Below are positions 3,779 through 27,184 of a DNA stretch of 27,572 nt, one piece after another. Source of the DNA: a virus. Positions within the stretch are counted from its first letter, which is position 1. Every line of letters starts with the position of its first letter. Position numbers and translations under genes: made by a program. Below the pieces are notes generated by a model that worked only from the letters and a program-made list of their open reading frames with translations, ran no database searches and was not told where the DNA came from. Location: positions 1 to 27,572 of IMG/VR virus record IMGVR_UViG_3300018048_000047. One strand, written 5' to 3'.

Positions 3779-4354
3779 ATGACAATACAACATAACATTA
3801 TCACAGATCCAGATATACATGAACCTAAGGGTGTAGCATCAGCTACAAGTGGTAAAGTATATATTTCTAATGGATCAGGTTCAGGTGCATGGGAATACCC
3901 TCCTGGTAAAGCTCATGCTGAAATCTATATATCAGGTGGAACAACTGCTCATACATTAGCAGGTGCTTCTGCTTATTCTTTACTTAATCCAAGTGGAGAA
4001 TGGACTGCCTCAGGTAATGAAGACATTCTTACAGTAACTCCAGGTAGTGGTATTATTACTCTTAACCAAGCAGGTCACTATTTAGTAACCTTTTGGATTA
4101 ACTTTACAACAACAGCTATTGCTTCAGGATCTGCTTATAACTTTAAATATGCTCTTGATGGTTCAGTAGGAACTAGATTAAGTTCTGTTGTTAAACCTAC
4201 TAATAATGTTGATAAACTAACATTATCATCAACAGGTACACTAGCAGCAACAGCAGGTCAAACCCTATCAATGTTTGTAGGTGGAGATGGAACTTCTTCA
4301 GGAGAAGCTATTACTCCTACTGAAGCAGGTTTAGTTGCTCTATTCTTAGATTAG
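3779..4354 (+). CDS. Beta-sandwich decoration or fibre-like structural protein (C1q-like appearance)
   Basis: In this 191-residue protein the N-terminal 45 residues are polar (MTIQHNIITDPDIHEPKGVA). The remainder is Gly/Ser/Thr-rich with alternating hydrophobics. It contains ILTVTPGSGIITLNQAGHYL and ends EAGLVALFLD, a layout that resembles the C1q/TNF-like jelly roll seen in phage head fibres and decoration proteins. It probably sits on the outside of the virion, but whether on head or tail cannot be told. The ribosome binding site AGGA immediately follows the upstream terminator, so its mRNA comes from readthrough or from a promoter I cannot identify. Confidence 0.6.
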   Translation: MTIQHNIITDPDIHEPKGVASATSGKVYISNGSGSGAWEYPPGKAHAEIYISGGTTAHTLAGASAYSLLNPSGEWTASGNEDILTVTPGSGIITLNQAGHYLVTFWINFTTTAIASGSAYNFKYALDGSVGTRLSSVVKPTNNVDKLTLSSTGTLAATAGQTLSMFVGGDGTSSGEAITPTEAGLVALFLD

Positions 4355-21688: not shown

Positions 21689-22206
21689 TATAATGGAATA
21701 TCGTCTTCCATATCTGCAACTGAATTAACAGACTTGTTATCCATTACATAGTTCTCAAACTCTTTAGCCATAGCTAAAATGTCTGCGACAGAAGGTTGTT
21801 TACCTTCAGCAGTCAAAGCTGAGATAGAAGAAGAGATAGATGACTGTCTTACGATCATAACTTGACGTTGTGCTCGTTCTTCTTTAGTTTCATAGTTACT
21901 ACCAGTGACTCGTGTAGTTGGTTTAGCATTACTTGTAGTGCTTGTAGCTTGTGCTATTGCATCAGCTCCAATACTAATCCACTGCCAATAGCCATTGTCA
22001 TCTTTCTGAGTATTGACATCTACTGTGTCACCTTTTTGCCATTCTTTAGCCTGTTTAAACACATCAGGATTACTGAATGACATTAGCTTTTTAGATTGTA
22101 CTTGACCACTATCATTCTTATATGTTACTTCCATTGACTGATATGATCTACCATTCTTAGTTGAATGAGTATTAGGTTGTCCTACATCAATTACTGTGAT
22201 TTGCAT
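21688..22206 (-). CDS. Single-stranded DNA-binding protein
   Basis: The 172-residue protein has an N-terminal OB-like beta domain (ITVIDVGQPNTHSTKNGRSY; then KGDTVDVNTQKDDNGYWQWI). A flexible Ser/Thr-rich linker and a helical part follow. The tail ends acidic, DMEDDIPL, the typical SSB tip that recruits replication partners. The gene lies directly after the polymerase C-terminal gene, overlapping it by 20 bases, and before the exonuclease. Confidence 0.8.
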   Translation of the reverse strand: MQITVIDVGQPNTHSTKNGRSYQSMEVTYKNDSGQVQSKKLMSFSNPDVFKQAKEWQKGDTVDVNTQKDDNGYWQWISIGADAIAQATSTTSNAKPTTRVTGSNYETKEERAQRQVMIVRQSSISSSISALTAEGKQPSVADILAMAKEFENYVMDNKSVNSVADMEDDIPL

Positions 22207-22912
22207 TTATAATCTCCATATCACCCCATGTTTGTCCAACTTGACATTCGACTCGCATAGGTAAGTTAAAATCTACTCCAAATAACTTACTAAAGTTATC
22301 AGGAACATCTTCAAAACATTTATCAACTATGTTGACCAATGTAACATTATCCCACACTTTTGGATCAAAGTCAAGGATAATGGAATCGTGAACAGTATTC
22401 ACCATCTTCACTCCATCACGACCTTTAAGACGATTTCTCAATGATACTCGAGCTATCGCCATTAAATCTGCACCGAGTCCTTGAACTGGATAATTTAATA
22501 TCTTTGTTCGAGGATACTTCATCTTACCATACTTAATCTCAGGCTCATAAAAATAAGTACGTCCTGTAGGCATGATAAGTTTATGATCTCTTTTAGCTTT
22601 AAAGAATATCTCTTCGTGCCACTGATATAAGTTTTTATATTTATTATAGAATTCTTTAATGATATTTTCCCAGAACTCTTCTTTACCTACATCTTTAAAG
22701 TTAGGATCATTAGCATAAGACCAAGCACTGCCTCCATAGATTAATCTAAATACAAAAGTCTTAGCAATCAATCTACTTGGTAGTCCAAATCTTTTCTGAT
22801 TATCAGAGTGCATGTCTGTGCCTTTCCATATCTCATCAATCGCTACTTGATCTTGAGACAAATAACTAGCACCTACCCACTCTAGTTGTTTTGCATCTGC
22901 TTGTAATAACAT
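22187..22912 (-). CDS. polA: DNA polymerase family A, C-terminal half (palm and fingers)
   Basis: This 241-residue gene starts MLLQADAKQLEW, that is, two residues before motif A, whose catalytic Asp is D6. Motif B (O-helix) is KTFVFRLIYGG at K51-G61, with Phe55 at the position of E. coli Phe762 / T7 Tyr526. Motif C is TVHDSIILDF with H175/D176. It has no exonuclease or thumb, so it must work with the product of the gene at 23354-24511. Its ATG overlaps the stop of the 90-aa gene (TAATG) and AAGAGG is the ribosome binding site. Confidence 0.9.
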   Translation of the reverse strand: MLLQADAKQLEWVGASYLSQDQVAIDEIWKGTDMHSDNQKRFGLPSRLIAKTFVFRLIYGGSAWSYANDPNFKDVGKEEFWENIIKEFYNKYKNLYQWHEEIFFKAKRDHKLIMPTGRTYFYEPEIKYGKMKYPRTKILNYPVQGLGADLMAIARVSLRNRLKGRDGVKMVNTVHDSIILDFDPKVWDNVTLVNIVDKCFEDVPDNFSKLFGVDFNLPMRVECQVGQTWGDMEIINANHSN

Positions 22913-23184
22913 TAGTAATGCCTCTTAATATAATCTATTAATTTCTTTTTAGAAGGTACATCTAAGTGTTTCATTAAAAACTCAGGACCATCTATCTGAA
23001 TCACATCTTCAATATCATGAATAATATATTGTATCCAAGCTTCCTGAACTCCAAGCTTTTCTATATATTCATAAAGCTCATCTAAACGTCTTGTTCTAAA
23101 TGATTCATGGGTTCCAAAACAATCCCAAGGATACCAAAATGCACCTTTGTAATTATCTTTCATTAGTAGTGCTTTGCTAACCAT
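22912..23184 (-). CDS. 90-aa protein inserted between the two DNA polymerase genes
   Basis: The protein starts MVSKALLMKDNYKGAFWYPW; the aromatic/Cys part YPWDCFGTHES is followed by helices. Residues 57-90 align without gaps to residues 31-64 of the 64-aa protein encoded just upstream (11 of 34 identical; both end in HY). Its start lies inside the upstream gene (22-base overlap). An alternative start at Met8 (23163) would begin right at that gene's end. No homing endonuclease motif (GIY-YIG, HNH, LAGLIDADG) is present. Possible roles include bridging the split polymerase, but that is only inference. Confidence 0.7.
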   Translation of the reverse strand: MVSKALLMKDNYKGAFWYPWDCFGTHESFRTRRLDELYEYIEKLGVQEAWIQYIIHDIEDVIQIDGPEFLMKHLDVPSKKKLIDYIKRHY

Positions 23185-23357
23185 TTAACAATCTGCTCAG
23201 TAGAGTAGTCATTAAGATTTTCCATAACTATCTCAACACCTATCTCTTGAATGATTGTGTTTATATCATTAACTGTATGCACTACATAAGCTTCTTCCTG
23301 ATCTGATTGAAGTTGCATACCTTCATCATAATCAGGTGTGTAGTTGTCACTGTTCAT
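23163..23357 (-). CDS. 64-aa protein inserted between the two DNA polymerase genes
   Basis: The acidic N-terminus (MNSDNYTPDYDEGMQLQSDQ) is followed by a helical domain VVHTVNDINTIIQEIGVEIV and ends VKWLAKHY. Small proteins with a VHTVNDI-type segment seem common in marine podoviruses, but I cannot name a function. Its ATG overlaps the stop of the polymerase N-terminal gene (ATGA), and its ribosome binding site AAGGAGG is formed by that gene's last codons. It is related to the 90-aa protein that follows. Confidence 0.7.
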   Translation of the reverse strand: MNSDNYTPDYDEGMQLQSDQEEAYVVHTVNDINTIIQEIGVEIVMENLNDYSTEQIVKWLAKHY

Positions 23358-24511
23358 ATTGCCTCCTTATATCGTGATAATAATAGTCCTTTGATTTCAC
23401 CATCAAAGTTCTGTAAATTAGGTTTACTACTTGATAGTCTACCTGTCCTTGCCACACATTGGTTAAGTTGTCCATAGATATGACCTCTTTCCCAATTCTG
23501 TTCTGTAATCAAATTAACTAAACCTTTATAGTATGCTGTCATTCTCTTCTCTAAAACGGCTCTTGTCAATATAATCTTAATAACTTCTGATGCTTTCTTT
23601 GATCCTGCTAAACTACGAAGTGTTTGTTCATCAGTAGAGTATAAACCTTCTTTCTCTAACTCTGACCCTTTTAAAGGTTTTACAAGTCTAGGAAACTCTA
23701 TTTCATGGGCTTCCCATTTGAATCTTGGTTGTCCTTCTTTCTCTCCCGACTTATAAACCCCATTAGGCAGTCTCCTCCTAAATGTAACATTACCACCATA
23801 TAAGAAAGCACTAAGGTGATCAACGCTATTGGGATTGAAATCATCACACTTATGTATGTCATACAACCTTTTATCAAGCTTTGCAATTTGTTCCTCCATT
23901 TCATGTCCTAAAATCTCTGACTTATCCTGATCGTATAAGACACCATTAAACTCCATTTCCTCAAGAACAAGTAAGTCCTGATTGTGTAAGCTAATGAGTC
24001 TTTTAAGATGTGGATTTACTTCAAGATCTTCTAACTGTTTTAAATATACTTGCTCTGTAAGATCTAAATCTTTCTGCAAATACTCCTCTAGAATATCACG
24101 AGGAATCTCATTAGTATCAATGCCGTTCTTCCAATATTCTTCTTTAACTACATCTAGTTTAGTCTCTAGTCCATAGTGTTCACAAACTTGATTTAAGCTA
24201 GGATATGGTTTAGATTGTCCCATTAGGATAAAGTGTACCAACTGACAATCCCATATTCTTTTATCCTGAAAGTCTATACCATACTTACGAACCCAATGTA
24301 GATCAAACTTAATATTAAATCCTACAAGCATATCGTGATTGTTGATGACCGACTGAACACGATCAAGGTCATCTCGATATGGATGTTCTGTATACTCGAT
24401 GTCATAGATACCATTGTCTTTGAGACCTATGAGACAGAGCTTGTTTAAACGACTGAAAGGATTACCTTTATTCTGAATCGTTGTTTCTACGTCTAGCGTT
24501 AGATGTTTCAT
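23354..24511 (-). CDS. polA: DNA polymerase family A, N-terminal half (exonuclease and thumb)
   Basis: The 385-residue protein has a 3'-5' proofreading exonuclease domain with all three motifs. Exo I is LTLDVET (D7, E9), Exo II is VGFNIKFDLHWV (D70) and Exo III is YLQKD (Y144, D148). The thumb and start of the palm follow, with the conserved CVARTGRLSSSKPNLQNFDG close to the end. The gene stops after SRYKEAI, exactly where a normal polymerase would run into motif A. Together with the C-terminal gene it gives about 626 residues, with nothing evidently missing. The last codons contain AAGGAGG for the next gene. Confidence 0.9.
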   Translation of the reverse strand: MKHLTLDVETTIQNKGNPFSRLNKLCLIGLKDNGIYDIEYTEHPYRDDLDRVQSVINNHDMLVGFNIKFDLHWVRKYGIDFQDKRIWDCQLVHFILMGQSKPYPSLNQVCEHYGLETKLDVVKEEYWKNGIDTNEIPRDILEEYLQKDLDLTEQVYLKQLEDLEVNPHLKRLISLHNQDLLVLEEMEFNGVLYDQDKSEILGHEMEEQIAKLDKRLYDIHKCDDFNPNSVDHLSAFLYGGNVTFRRRLPNGVYKSGEKEGQPRFKWEAHEIEFPRLVKPLKGSELEKEGLYSTDEQTLRSLAGSKKASEVIKIILTRAVLEKRMTAYYKGLVNLITEQNWERGHIYGQLNQCVARTGRLSSSKPNLQNFDGEIKGLLLSRYKEAI

Positions 24512-24895: not shown

Positions 24896-26123
24896 AACGA
24901 GCAACCTCAGGTCTGATAAGAACCTGTGTAGAACCATGTCTTAACTCAGGTAGAGTATCAACATCTCCTATCAGTTTGTTCTTACAAATGTTTAAGAAAC
25001 GAAGTCTTGATGTATTGTCTTGTTCTTTACCAATACCAAGAATCCAATCTGCCTCACCTTGCTTACCTGTTTTAGAACCATCTACCATGTCCATTGTAAG
25101 CCATAACTTACCCTCAGCCTCACCACTTGCTTGTGATACTGCAATCACTGGGGCATATCTCTTTGCTATTTCTCTTGCCCATTGATAGATCGCCTTGAGC
25201 TCCAAATCGTTACGATCAGCTTTAAAGCCTTTGATCTTATCGATCTGATCGAAAATAATCAAGGCAGGGGTAGATTCCTTGAGTATTGCATCGATCCTTG
25301 AAGCTCGAGACGAATCATCAAAATCGTAAATCTTAATTCGTCCTCCACCTAGAGAAATAAACTTCTCTTGATTGTGTTCTTTGTCATTGAAGAGTGGATC
25401 TAATTCTAATCCAAGCATAGCTTGAAAGCATCGTATAGCTACTTTCTTACCTTGTTCTTCGTTGTTGAACCAAATGATTTCACCCTCTGTTTGCTGAACC
25501 ATTTTAGTTACTTCACTAGCTAGGAAAGTTGTCTTACCTGTTTCTGGTCTTGCGAAGATAAAACCAAAGTCGCCTTTTCTGAGTGAACCTAGTGCTTGGT
25601 TTAGCCATTTCAATCTCCATCGTAATCCTGGTGTTTCTATCTGAGAGTCATAGAGTTCGTTAAGATCCATAAGAACCTCTTGTGATTCATCAGCCTCAAT
25701 CTGTGAGTGATCGAACTCGTCATAGATCTTGTGGAGTTCCTCGATGTCTGCCTTGCCATCCTCAACGTCAAGAGCGATACGAGCAATCTCACCTGAGAGG
25801 CATCTCTTACGATGCTCTTCGAGTAAGTCTATAACTGCTTCAGGGTTTGTGATTTCAATAGCGAAGATGTCTTCGATCAGAGAGGTGATCTCTTTTCGTT
25901 CCATTTCGTTTAGGAGGTAGTTAGAATTGTATGCTAATTCTAATTCAGATTTATTAATATTATTATTATTAATATATTTATTATAATAATTATTTATAAT
26001 AATAAATAATTTATATATATTAATATAATTAATTTTAATATAATTAATATTAACATATTTATAAAACTTTGTAAAGAGATTTCTATCTTCACAAAATAAC
26101 TTGATTATCTGCTTTTCAACCAT
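24882..26123 (-). CDS. Replicative DNA helicase (DnaB / T7 gp4 helicase type)
   Basis: This 413-residue RecA-fold hexameric helicase unwinds the phage DNA. Residues 1-100 are an N-terminal helical domain. Walker A is FARPETGKTTF (G196-K197-T198), followed by IIWFNNEEQGKK (the H1a acidic segment). Walker B is ALIIFDQIDK with D292, and then come AVSQASGEAE and the C-terminal motif DWILGIGKEQ. Unlike T7 gp4, primase and helicase are separate genes that overlap by 19 bases. Residues 24-59 are encoded almost only by A and T, giving an Ile/Asn/Tyr/Lys-only stretch. AGGGGA lies nine bases before the ATG. Confidence 0.88.
   Translation of the reverse strand: MVEKQIIKLFCEDRNLFTKFYKYVNINYIKINYINIYKLFIIINNYYNKYINNNNINKSELELAYNSNYLLNEMERKEITSLIEDIFAIEITNPEAVIDLLEEHRKRCLSGEIARIALDVEDGKADIEELHKIYDEFDHSQIEADESQEVLMDLNELYDSQIETPGLRWRLKWLNQALGSLRKGDFGFIFARPETGKTTFLASEVTKMVQQTEGEIIWFNNEEQGKKVAIRCFQAMLGLELDPLFNDKEHNQEKFISLGGGRIKIYDFDDSSRASRIDAILKESTPALIIFDQIDKIKGFKADRNDLELKAIYQWAREIAKRYAPVIAVSQASGEAEGKLWLTMDMVDGSKTGKQGEADWILGIGKEQDNTSRLRFLNICKNKLIGDVDTLPELRHGSTQVLIRPEVARYEDI
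25949..26053. other. 105-base pure A/T run inside the helicase gene, possible DNA unwinding element
   Basis: From 25949 to 26053 there is not one G or C, and only one C up to 26066. The run is in frame and free of stops on the minus strand. It encodes helicase residues 24-59, where related proteins keep a helical domain. It contains many TAATAT, TTATAA and ATTAAT blocks. Such a stretch melts easily and is a candidate for a replication origin, though relaxed codon drift is an alternative. Confidence 0.6.
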
Positions 26124-26800
26124 TCTACAATTTCCCCTTTTGTATATTCTTTTGGATCTTTATCGGTAACGATCACTCTACTGTCTAATCCTCTGCTTGT
26201 CAACTTCCTCTTGATTCTCAGAGCATTCAGTGCTTTGTCTCGATCAAGCCAAACTGCAACTTGTTTAAACGACTCTACGATTTGATTCTCGAATTCGTAA
26301 GAGAGTGAAGACCCCAACAATGGAGCTGAACAAAAACCACTTCGAGTCCTTGCAACTCTCATCGCTGAGATAATGTCTTCAACAAGCACGAGAGTATCAC
26401 CCTCACCATAGATTGTCAATGGCTTTATACCACTTGACATATATTTTATTTTACTTGTTGGATCAAACACTCGTCCTTGCCAATATTTAGCCGTGTCAAT
26501 TAGCACTAATAACTGTTTTTTAGCATCCCATTTGATGTCATATTGCTTAACTTCATCTTGGGAGATGCCGTAAGATAGCAACCATTTCATAACATTTCGT
26601 GGTATTTCAGCGAAATTACCTATCATATCTACCCCTTTATCATCTTTATTTTTATTGTAAATTCTACTACGAATACTATTAATATCGTTCTTTAATTTGT
26701 AATATTTACAACCGAAACAATATTGATGATCCTCGTAGTCACCTAAATTATCCCTTGAGCCACATCGTGGACAAGGTATATGTCCTAAAAACTGACTCAT
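26105..26800 (-). CDS. DNA primase (zinc finger plus TOPRIM)
   Basis: I choose the ATG at 26800 (MSQFLGHIPCPRCGS). AAGGGG lies 11 bases upstream, while the GTG at 26809 is only two bases from it. The 231-residue protein has a zinc ribbon with C10, C13, C28 and C31 (PCPRCGS, YCFGCKYY). A TOPRIM domain follows, with the Glu in LVLVEDIISAM and the Asp pair in AVWLDRDKA. It makes RNA primers for lagging-strand synthesis, as the N-terminal half of T7 gp4 does. GTTTAAAC occurs within it (26263-26270) and just upstream (26824-26831). Confidence 0.87.
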   Translation of the reverse strand: MSQFLGHIPCPRCGSRDNLGDYEDHQYCFGCKYYKLKNDINSIRSRIYNKNKDDKGVDMIGNFAEIPRNVMKWLLSYGISQDEVKQYDIKWDAKKQLLVLIDTAKYWQGRVFDPTSKIKYMSSGIKPLTIYGEGDTLVLVEDIISAMRVARTRSGFCSAPLLGSSLSYEFENQIVESFKQVAVWLDRDKALNALRIKRKLTSRGLDSRVIVTDKDPKEYTKGEIVEWLKSR

Positions 26801-26853
26801 ACTTTTCACTACCCCTTAATCATGTTTAAACAATATCTAATAATTTAATACTG

Positions 26854-26862
26854 TGTTATAAT
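26854..26862 (+). promoter_or_regulatory. Extended -10 promoter of the pqqA gene
   Basis: TGTTATAAT at 26854-26862 is a perfect extended -10 element (TG-N-TATAAT). No good -35 hexamer is present, which is normal for this promoter class. GTTTAAAC lies at 26824-26831, just upstream of the -35 position, where an activator or repressor could act. The expected start site is at about 26868-26870. Confidence 0.7.
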
Positions 26863-26867
26863 ATTAC

Positions 26868-26889
26868 TATATACTGAAAAAAGTATATA
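26868..26889 (+). promoter_or_regulatory. 5' leader inverted repeat of the pqqA transcript
   Basis: TATATACT (26868-26875) and AGTATATA (26882-26889) are perfect inverted repeats around the loop GAAAAA. They begin at the predicted transcription start and end 14 bases before the ribosome binding site. As RNA this would put a hairpin at the 5' end, a common way to protect a short mRNA. As DNA it could be an operator. Confidence 0.55.
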
Positions 26890-26914: not shown

Positions 26915-26986
26915 ATGTGGACAAAGCCATCAGCAACTGAAATGAGATTCGGTTTCGAAGTTACAATGTACGTTTGTAACAAGTAA
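26915..26986 (+). CDS. pqqA: PqqA, precursor peptide of the cofactor pyrroloquinoline quinone
   Basis: The 23-residue peptide begins MWTKPSATEMRFG and ends FEVTMYVCNK. Glu15 and Tyr19 (E-x-x-x-Y in FEVTMY) are at the same positions as in Klebsiella PqqA, which is also 23 residues and shares the MW-KP start, R11, G13 and the EVT-Y core. In PQQ synthesis the radical SAM enzyme PqqE, with PqqD as chaperone, links these two side chains. PqqB, PqqC and a protease finish the cofactor. None of those enzymes is in the window. AAAGGAA precedes the ATG. The gene is monocistronic and antisense to its neighbours, and abuts the convergent zinc-ribbon gene. Codons for Phe, Tyr, Asn and Lys all end in C or G, unlike most of the phage, suggesting host origin or selection for strong expression. 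Confidence 0.92.
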   Translation: MWTKPSATEMRFGFEVTMYVCNK

Positions 26987-27184
26987 CTACAAATCATCGA
27001 AGAGGTCGTCTTCATCAGGATTGATGATCTCTTCATCTCTCAAATCTTCCCTCTCATACATCGGTGCATCTTTACTAATACTACCATAACACCAGTTACA
27101 TAAGTCAATGAACTCACCAGTTTCTGTTGATTTCCTTGTAGCCTCGAAATCACTCAACGCTTTATTACACGCTTTACATCTCAT
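26987..27184 (-). CDS. 65-aa zinc-ribbon protein
   Basis: The protein starts MRCKACNKALSDFEATRKST with CxxC, and a second CxxC in LCNWCYGSIS makes a four-cysteine zinc ribbon. The C-terminus is strongly acidic (NPDEDDLFDDL), which could mimic DNA or contact a polymerase. Small proteins of this type are frequent in podovirus early regions. AAGGAA lies six bases upstream. It is convergent with and directly adjacent to pqqA. Confidence 0.75.
   Translation of the reverse strand: MRCKACNKALSDFEATRKSTETGEFIDLCNWCYGSISKDAPMYEREDLRDEEIINPDEDDLFDDL

Follow-up and report, generated by a model that had tools for sequence, protein, structure and literature searches.

Between the genes for a DNA primase and for a 65-residue protein with Cys pairs, both on the minus strand, the window, by which we mean the whole 27,572-base virus contig that was analysed, carries a 23-codon gene, pqqA, that is antisense to both of its neighbours (Table 1). 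In a profile search, the encoded peptide covers 19 of the 19 positions of the Pfam PqqA family PF08042 (E 3e-11) and all positions of the NCBIfam PqqA equivalog TIGR02107, with scores about twice the respective cut-offs of 21.1 and 20 bits. The initial annotation, made from the sequence letters, had read the frame as PqqA along its full length, and the profile matches bear this out: Glu15 and Tyr19, which we take to be the residues that become PQQ, and the MW-KP start are all found in the peptide. Also as first described, none of pqqB-E is among the ORFs of the window. A PqqA match was found in none of 14 control genomes, and a PHROGs search with the peptide returned no PqqA match.

Table 1. 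The pqqA unit of the window and the two genes that border it; positions are counted from the first base of the window.
Feature	Position	Strand	Description	Similarity, score or conservation
DNA primase gene	26105..26809	-	Divergent from pqqA; one edge of the slot	45-48% identical to the primases of MEP401, MEP402 and MW202796
Extended -10 box TGTTATAAT	26854..26862	+	Part of the likely own promoter of pqqA	TATAAT conserved in place in L016, L045, L056 and L080
Leader hairpin TATACTGAAAAAAGTATA	26870..26887	+	About where the transcript should start	Conserved in L016, L045 and L056
Shine-Dalgarno site AAAGGAA	26902..26908	+	6 nt before the ATG; read from the sequence	
pqqA	26915..26986	+	23 codons plus stop, translation MWTKPSATEMRFGFEVTMYVCNK	PF08042 43.3 bits, TIGR02107 44.7 bits
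Gene for 65-aa protein with Cys pairs	26987..27184	-	Convergent with pqqA; other edge of the slot	62% identical to MEP401 4027-4203
Hairpin just 3' of pqqA	26999..27034	+	Within the convergent gene; possible 3' end, no T run	z -4.7

The frame is not a product of chance, since the identical peptide occupies the same slot in contigs from other metagenomes (L481, L482) that share 97-100% primase identity with the window. Viral matches were also fetched with a 27-nt pattern that covers just the last nine residues, and all 218 untruncated ones have the N-terminal half and the stop codon of a PqqA. The Glu-x-x-x-Tyr core, the loss of which in related phages had been named at the outset as an argument against PqqA, is kept in the window and in all full-length viral frames listed; the pattern scans partly require this core, and the loci fetched through the primase keep it too. 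These comparisons of sequence confirm that the window holds a real PqqA coding gene. The substitution pattern further points clearly to strong purifying selection on the peptide, stronger than on the adjacent primase. With silent sites near saturation the values are rough: pN/pS of pqqA was 0.123 (pS 0.51) in the 39 alleles of the slot that the primase search yielded, compared with 0.413 for the primase of the same phages; it was 0.156 for codons 2-14 of alleles fetched by the C-terminal DNA pattern, which does not include these codons, and 0.199 in the isolates plus the window.

By its gene content and order, the contig is a phage and a collinear relative of MEP401, an OM43 phage that is placed in the Zobellviridae in its record. 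Twenty-five genes have MEP401 homologues, collinear on both arms, with identities of 84% for the major capsid protein, 79% for ribonucleotide reductase, 70% for the portal, 62% for the helicase and 48% for the primase. In a comparison with 50,697 phage records, the DNA polymerases of MW202796 (67%), MEP401 (66%) and MEP402 (64%) came out nearest to that of the window. The 25 collinear genes, together with a slot that is shared by 56 relatives, uphold the early claim that pqqA is carried by the phage and is not flanking host DNA. From the kinship to these phages, we infer that the host is a methylotroph of the order Methylophilales, as had been thought likely.

A standard scan for sigma-70 promoters and terminators listed neither at the window pqqA, and no good -35 hexamer was found upstream of it. 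Because this generic scan listed no -10 box, a comparison within the lineage was needed to detect the putative promoter. TATAAT, the leader hairpin and the gene align in L016, L045 and L056, where pqqA occupies the same slot, and in L080, where the context is different and the hairpin stem is kept through changes on both sides. The hairpin of the window folds with the leader at -8.0 kcal/mol. The 3' hairpin was not scored as a terminator by the scan, and termination of the window pqqA is uncertain. Across 220 distinct phage units, an exact TATAAT lies upstream in 109, compared with a mean of 46 and a highest value of 59 in 50 base shuffles; the same box was found upstream of only 3 of 89 host units. 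Shine-Dalgarno sites are present in 86 of 87 phage units and, in the larger set, in 207 of 220, and the 50 nt downstream of the gene form much more stable folds than their shuffled versions do (mean z -3.6 over 220 units), as is also the case in hosts. Of 79 phage loci, 45 have pqqA on the strand opposite to both of its neighbours, an arrangement shown by 30 of 1230 ordinary ORFs that a crude ORF caller delimited in these contigs. Judged by these signals, the phage pqqA appears to be a self-contained module, with a putative -10 box of its own, a ribosome-binding site and, in most cases, a hairpin at the 3' side; its orientation is often opposite to that of the genes on either side. Some loci have additional elements. 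In Venkman-type and MEP301 loci (L170, L172, L072, L075-L078, L090), a CCTTG or CTTG further upstream pairs with the Shine-Dalgarno site to form a small hairpin (CCTTGATTAACCAACAAGG), possibly a translation control. In L012, L024, L030, L034, L046 and L047, what looks like an operator, an inverted repeat close to TGTATTACATGTATTACA, lies next to the -10 box upstream of pqqA.

The slot before the primase is not filled in every relative. In MEP401, the homologues of the primase and of the 65-residue protein overlap each other, which leaves no room for pqqA there, and the MEP401 pqqA is located at 41899-41970, ahead of the structural genes. Eighty IMG/VR loci were fetched through the primase alone, with PqqA not used, and the slot was readable in 72 of them. 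The initial annotation had suggested looking for the same short frame beside the primase genes of related contigs, and it was found in the slot in 56 of the 72, antisense, with a median distance of 112 nt to the primase start. Of the remaining 16, L542 has pqqA 0.7 kb away and the other 15 have none at this locus. The records of L551 and L560 have pqqA at another position, and those of L512, L524, L544, L545, L547, L555 and L558 show no pqqA in the 16-39 kb that they cover. When the 'slot' label is mapped on a tree of the primases, 14 changes are required, 13 of which are forced by well-supported branches; these may be losses or gains. Near-identical neighbours differ in this respect, as seen for L518 and L515 with the module versus L524 and L523 without it, L553 versus L544, and L513 versus L512. 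In loci without the module, the stop of the small gene abuts or overlaps the primase start. The gene and its leader have been gained or lost as a single piece of about 170-190 bases, so that genomes otherwise alike either have the whole module or lack it. Since 72 nt seemed too little sequence for a gene tree that could date the acquisitions, we relied on genomic position.

A tblastn search of the window peptide against all 50,697 phage records found Venkman, MEP301, MEP401, MEP402, P19250A, four Melnitz phages and one Venkman-related environmental phage; of the three other matches, two come from a pqqABCDE operon of bacterial origin that had been deposited as a phage, and the third is no better than chance. 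'Acinetobacter phage MD-2021a' (L008, CAKLQF020000010.1) was rejected as a case of phage pqqA, as it holds ppk and a whole pqqABCDE operon and looks bacterial. The gene is unannotated in Venkman, MEP301, MEP401, MEP402 and P19250A and lies beneath a wrong antisense ORF in Melnitz and MW202481, just as one would expect of a gene said to be missed by most gene callers. The Pfam cut-off was passed by seven of the eight phage records tested; MW202796 lacks the gene. Klebsiella-type and Methylorubrum-type PqqA queries found no further phages among the phage records, and all of the Methylophilales phages named in a tail-fibre search were already in the pqqA set. HIM624-A was sought in the phage collection through endolysin kin and was not found. 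By these searches, pqqA recurs in all isolated methylophage lineages examined, of which the full denominator is incomplete (MEP431-434 are outside the set), and, among the 50,697 records, it is restricted to phages of Methylophilales, bar the bacterial contig and the chance-level match.

Uncultivated viruses extend this distribution, as at least 585 confirmed stretches in IMG/VR encode PqqA. Each of 49 viral records of 17-99 kb has exactly one pqqA, none of these 49 long contigs has a PqqE over the cut-off, and no integrase was found in 50 pqqA-bearing records. One long record (72 kb, IMGVR_UViG_3300025120_009955; L307, L398, L399) also encodes a methanol dehydrogenase, at 608 bits for TIGR03075 and about 6 kb from pqqA, like the Lake Baikal phages discussed below. 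The MEP401-type, Venkman-type, MEP301, P19250A and T4-like Melnitz lineages are largely unrelated, and each has one pqqA copy, often at a different site. On balance, we lean towards the view that the solo pqqA is a near-universal and repeatedly acquired hallmark of Methylophilales viruses. A second set of viral contigs (L401-L480, e.g., L402, L433, L468), found in a scan with an alignment, has other PqqA types, mostly co-directional with their neighbours, and in L433 the PqqA-type gene directly follows a capsid-like gene. This set is not purely viral, as some of its members come from prophage edges or from host contigs, such as L406 and L428 with bacterial genes and L450 with an adjoining pqqB. 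A Methylophilales-type pqqA is also present on a contig of 3.5 kb (L099, CAKZOO010000028.1) that was assigned to a Flavobacteriaceae MAG; this contig is probably misbinned and is perhaps phage.

The hosts have nearly the same peptide. Multiple pqqA copies alongside a single pqqBCDE set were already known in Methylophilaceae (PMC4109929), and PQQ can also be obtained from outside, as the OM43 medium contains PQQ (PMC9004378). The Methylophilaceae genomes encode peptides almost identical to the phage PqqA, with 1-12 pqqA copies in 60 of 60 sampled genomes, and one PqqE over the cut-off plus a methanol dehydrogenase were found in all 18 genomes tested.

In PQQ synthesis, PqqA is bound by PqqD, its Glu and Tyr are cross-linked by PqqE, and the linked pair is cut out and oxidised to PQQ, so that one peptide is spent per cofactor. 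We think it quite probable that the phage supplies the stoichiometric substrate from which the enzymes of the host continue to produce PQQ for methanol dehydrogenase. The phage gene would then be a functional, stand-alone auxiliary metabolic gene; its peptide would enter the host PqqB-E pathway, be carried by PqqD, cross-linked by PqqE at E15 and Y19, trimmed and oxidised, and the resulting PQQ would serve as the cofactor of the host methanol dehydrogenases. If infection stops host transcription, PqqA would be exhausted before the enzymes, because only PqqA is consumed, one molecule per PQQ. One 72-nt phage gene may therefore be the cheapest means of sustaining PQQ, and methanol oxidation would go on to power phage replication. 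The expression of the phage gene, the processing of its peptide and the effect on PQQ are what we infer from these data. The substrate-supply model fits because pqqA alone is carried, with its own expression signals and near-letter conservation, and because the hosts multiply pqqA too; PqqE in 18 of 18 hosts versus 0 of 49 long pqqA-bearing viral contigs is a further count in its favor, and so are the restriction of the gene to Methylophilales phages and the methanol dehydrogenase gene on the 72-kb record. On the other side stand the relatives without pqqA (L524, L544, L512 and others; MW202796), which indicate that the gene is not essential in every case, as well as the multiple host copies, the possible uptake of PQQ from outside, and the lack of a clear terminator or -35 box in the window. 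An auxiliary metabolic role, as first proposed, is still the reading suggested by a conserved coding gene in a phage genome under strong selection.

There are several other ways to read the gene. A phage that encodes the substrate alone and no enzyme could use it as a decoy, to occupy or swamp PqqD or PqqE without making PQQ and so lower or redirect host methanol oxidation. In a decoy, however, one would expect the reacting residues to be changed or lost, whereas Glu15 and Tyr19 are kept in peptides nearly or exactly equal to those of the host, and some phages carry methanol dehydrogenase as well (the 72-kb record and the Lake Baikal phages, PMC7678222); this makes the decoy quite unlikely. 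The peptide might also be modified by the host PqqE for some other purpose, such as a signalling or protective one, or PQQ might serve as an antioxidant or exported factor and not in methanol dehydrogenase. PqqA-like peptides are substrates of radical-SAM enzymes, and the phage gene is tied to methanol oxidation by sequence comparison, but the association with phages of methylotrophs, in one case linked to methanol dehydrogenase, renders such a purpose unlikely.

The arrangement of the module, antisense to both neighbours and with a likely promoter and hairpins of its own, could also suggest that it acts mainly as an antisense or structured RNA that adjusts the primase operon, in which case the reading frame would be incidental. 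We hold this to be very unlikely: it is the protein rather than the DNA that is conserved (pN/pS 0.12, with near-saturated silent changes), and other phages hold pqqA in quite different places, co-directional ones included. Even less credible, to the point of being extremely unlikely, is that pqqA is host contamination, an attachment site or an integration relic. The gene is indeed multicopy in hosts, and some IMG/VR matches are host contigs or prophage edges, but exact identity to the 89 host units never extends beyond 29 nt, no integrase was found in the 50 pqqA-bearing records, many contigs from different metagenomes have pqqA in this very slot, and collinearity with MEP401 extends through the flanks for 25 genes. 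The idea of an attachment site was rejected on the first two of these grounds.

In cyanophages, psbA (D1) supplies one fast-consumed part of the energy system of the host. The substrate-supply model would share this logic, with the difference that D1 is a protein subunit and PqqA would be a consumable precursor peptide of a cofactor. Another comparable system is the cellular pqqA of Methylophilaceae (PMC4109929), a nearly identical, stand-alone gene with a Shine-Dalgarno site and a 3' hairpin, in copies dispersed away from pqqBCDE; the phage units differ from it in the frequent TATAAT box noted above. Phage pqqA itself has also been published. According to a 2020 report on Lake Baikal, the T4-like phage populations VP_266 and VP_139 encode PqqA with methanol dehydrogenase, and they resemble the window phage in the predicted Methylophilaceae host, in PqqA and in the proposed role in methanol oxidation (PMC7678222). 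They differ in that the window phage is of the MEP401 type (Zobellviridae-like) and has no more than pqqA, in front of the primase and in what is probably a transcription unit of its own. In a 2026 report on reservoir sediments, viral pqqA, pqqD and pqqE were counted as auxiliary metabolic genes, but were filed under phosphate solubilisation, with pqqD and pqqE present and, in its accessible text, no methylophage context (PMC13188868). The early remark that no established description in phages was known is thus overturned by these two reports. The accessible text of the Lake Baikal report does not describe pqqA as general among methylophages, and the published descriptions of Venkman, MEP301, MEP401/402 and Melnitz do not mention it. 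The ubiquity of pqqA in isolated methylophages, the architecture of the module and its gain, loss and relocation appear to be undescribed in the literature searched, which leaves out most subscription journals and preprints.

Together, the observations suggest that viruses may keep the methanol-burning machinery of their hosts supplied during infection. If the hallmark reading is true, the precursor peptide would be the limiting point of PQQ-dependent methylotrophy in infection. If the substrate-supply model is right, viruses would sustain marine and freshwater methanol oxidation through a 72-nt gene that is routinely missed by annotation. The old question of whether the supply of PqqA limits PQQ would become testable, and the answer may explain why hosts multiply pqqA yet keep one enzyme set. 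The gene would also be a simple sequence marker with which methylotroph hosts can be assigned to uncultivated viral contigs.

Two other features of the window can be mentioned here. DNA polymerase A (22187-24511) is encoded by two separate genes that flank two small ORFs, an arrangement shared with MEP401, for which an intron was suspected by its authors. At 25925-26090, within the N-terminal part of the helicase frame, there is an extremely AT-rich tract with many TTATTA and TAATAA motifs, which could be coding, or could be an origin-like or start-site region.
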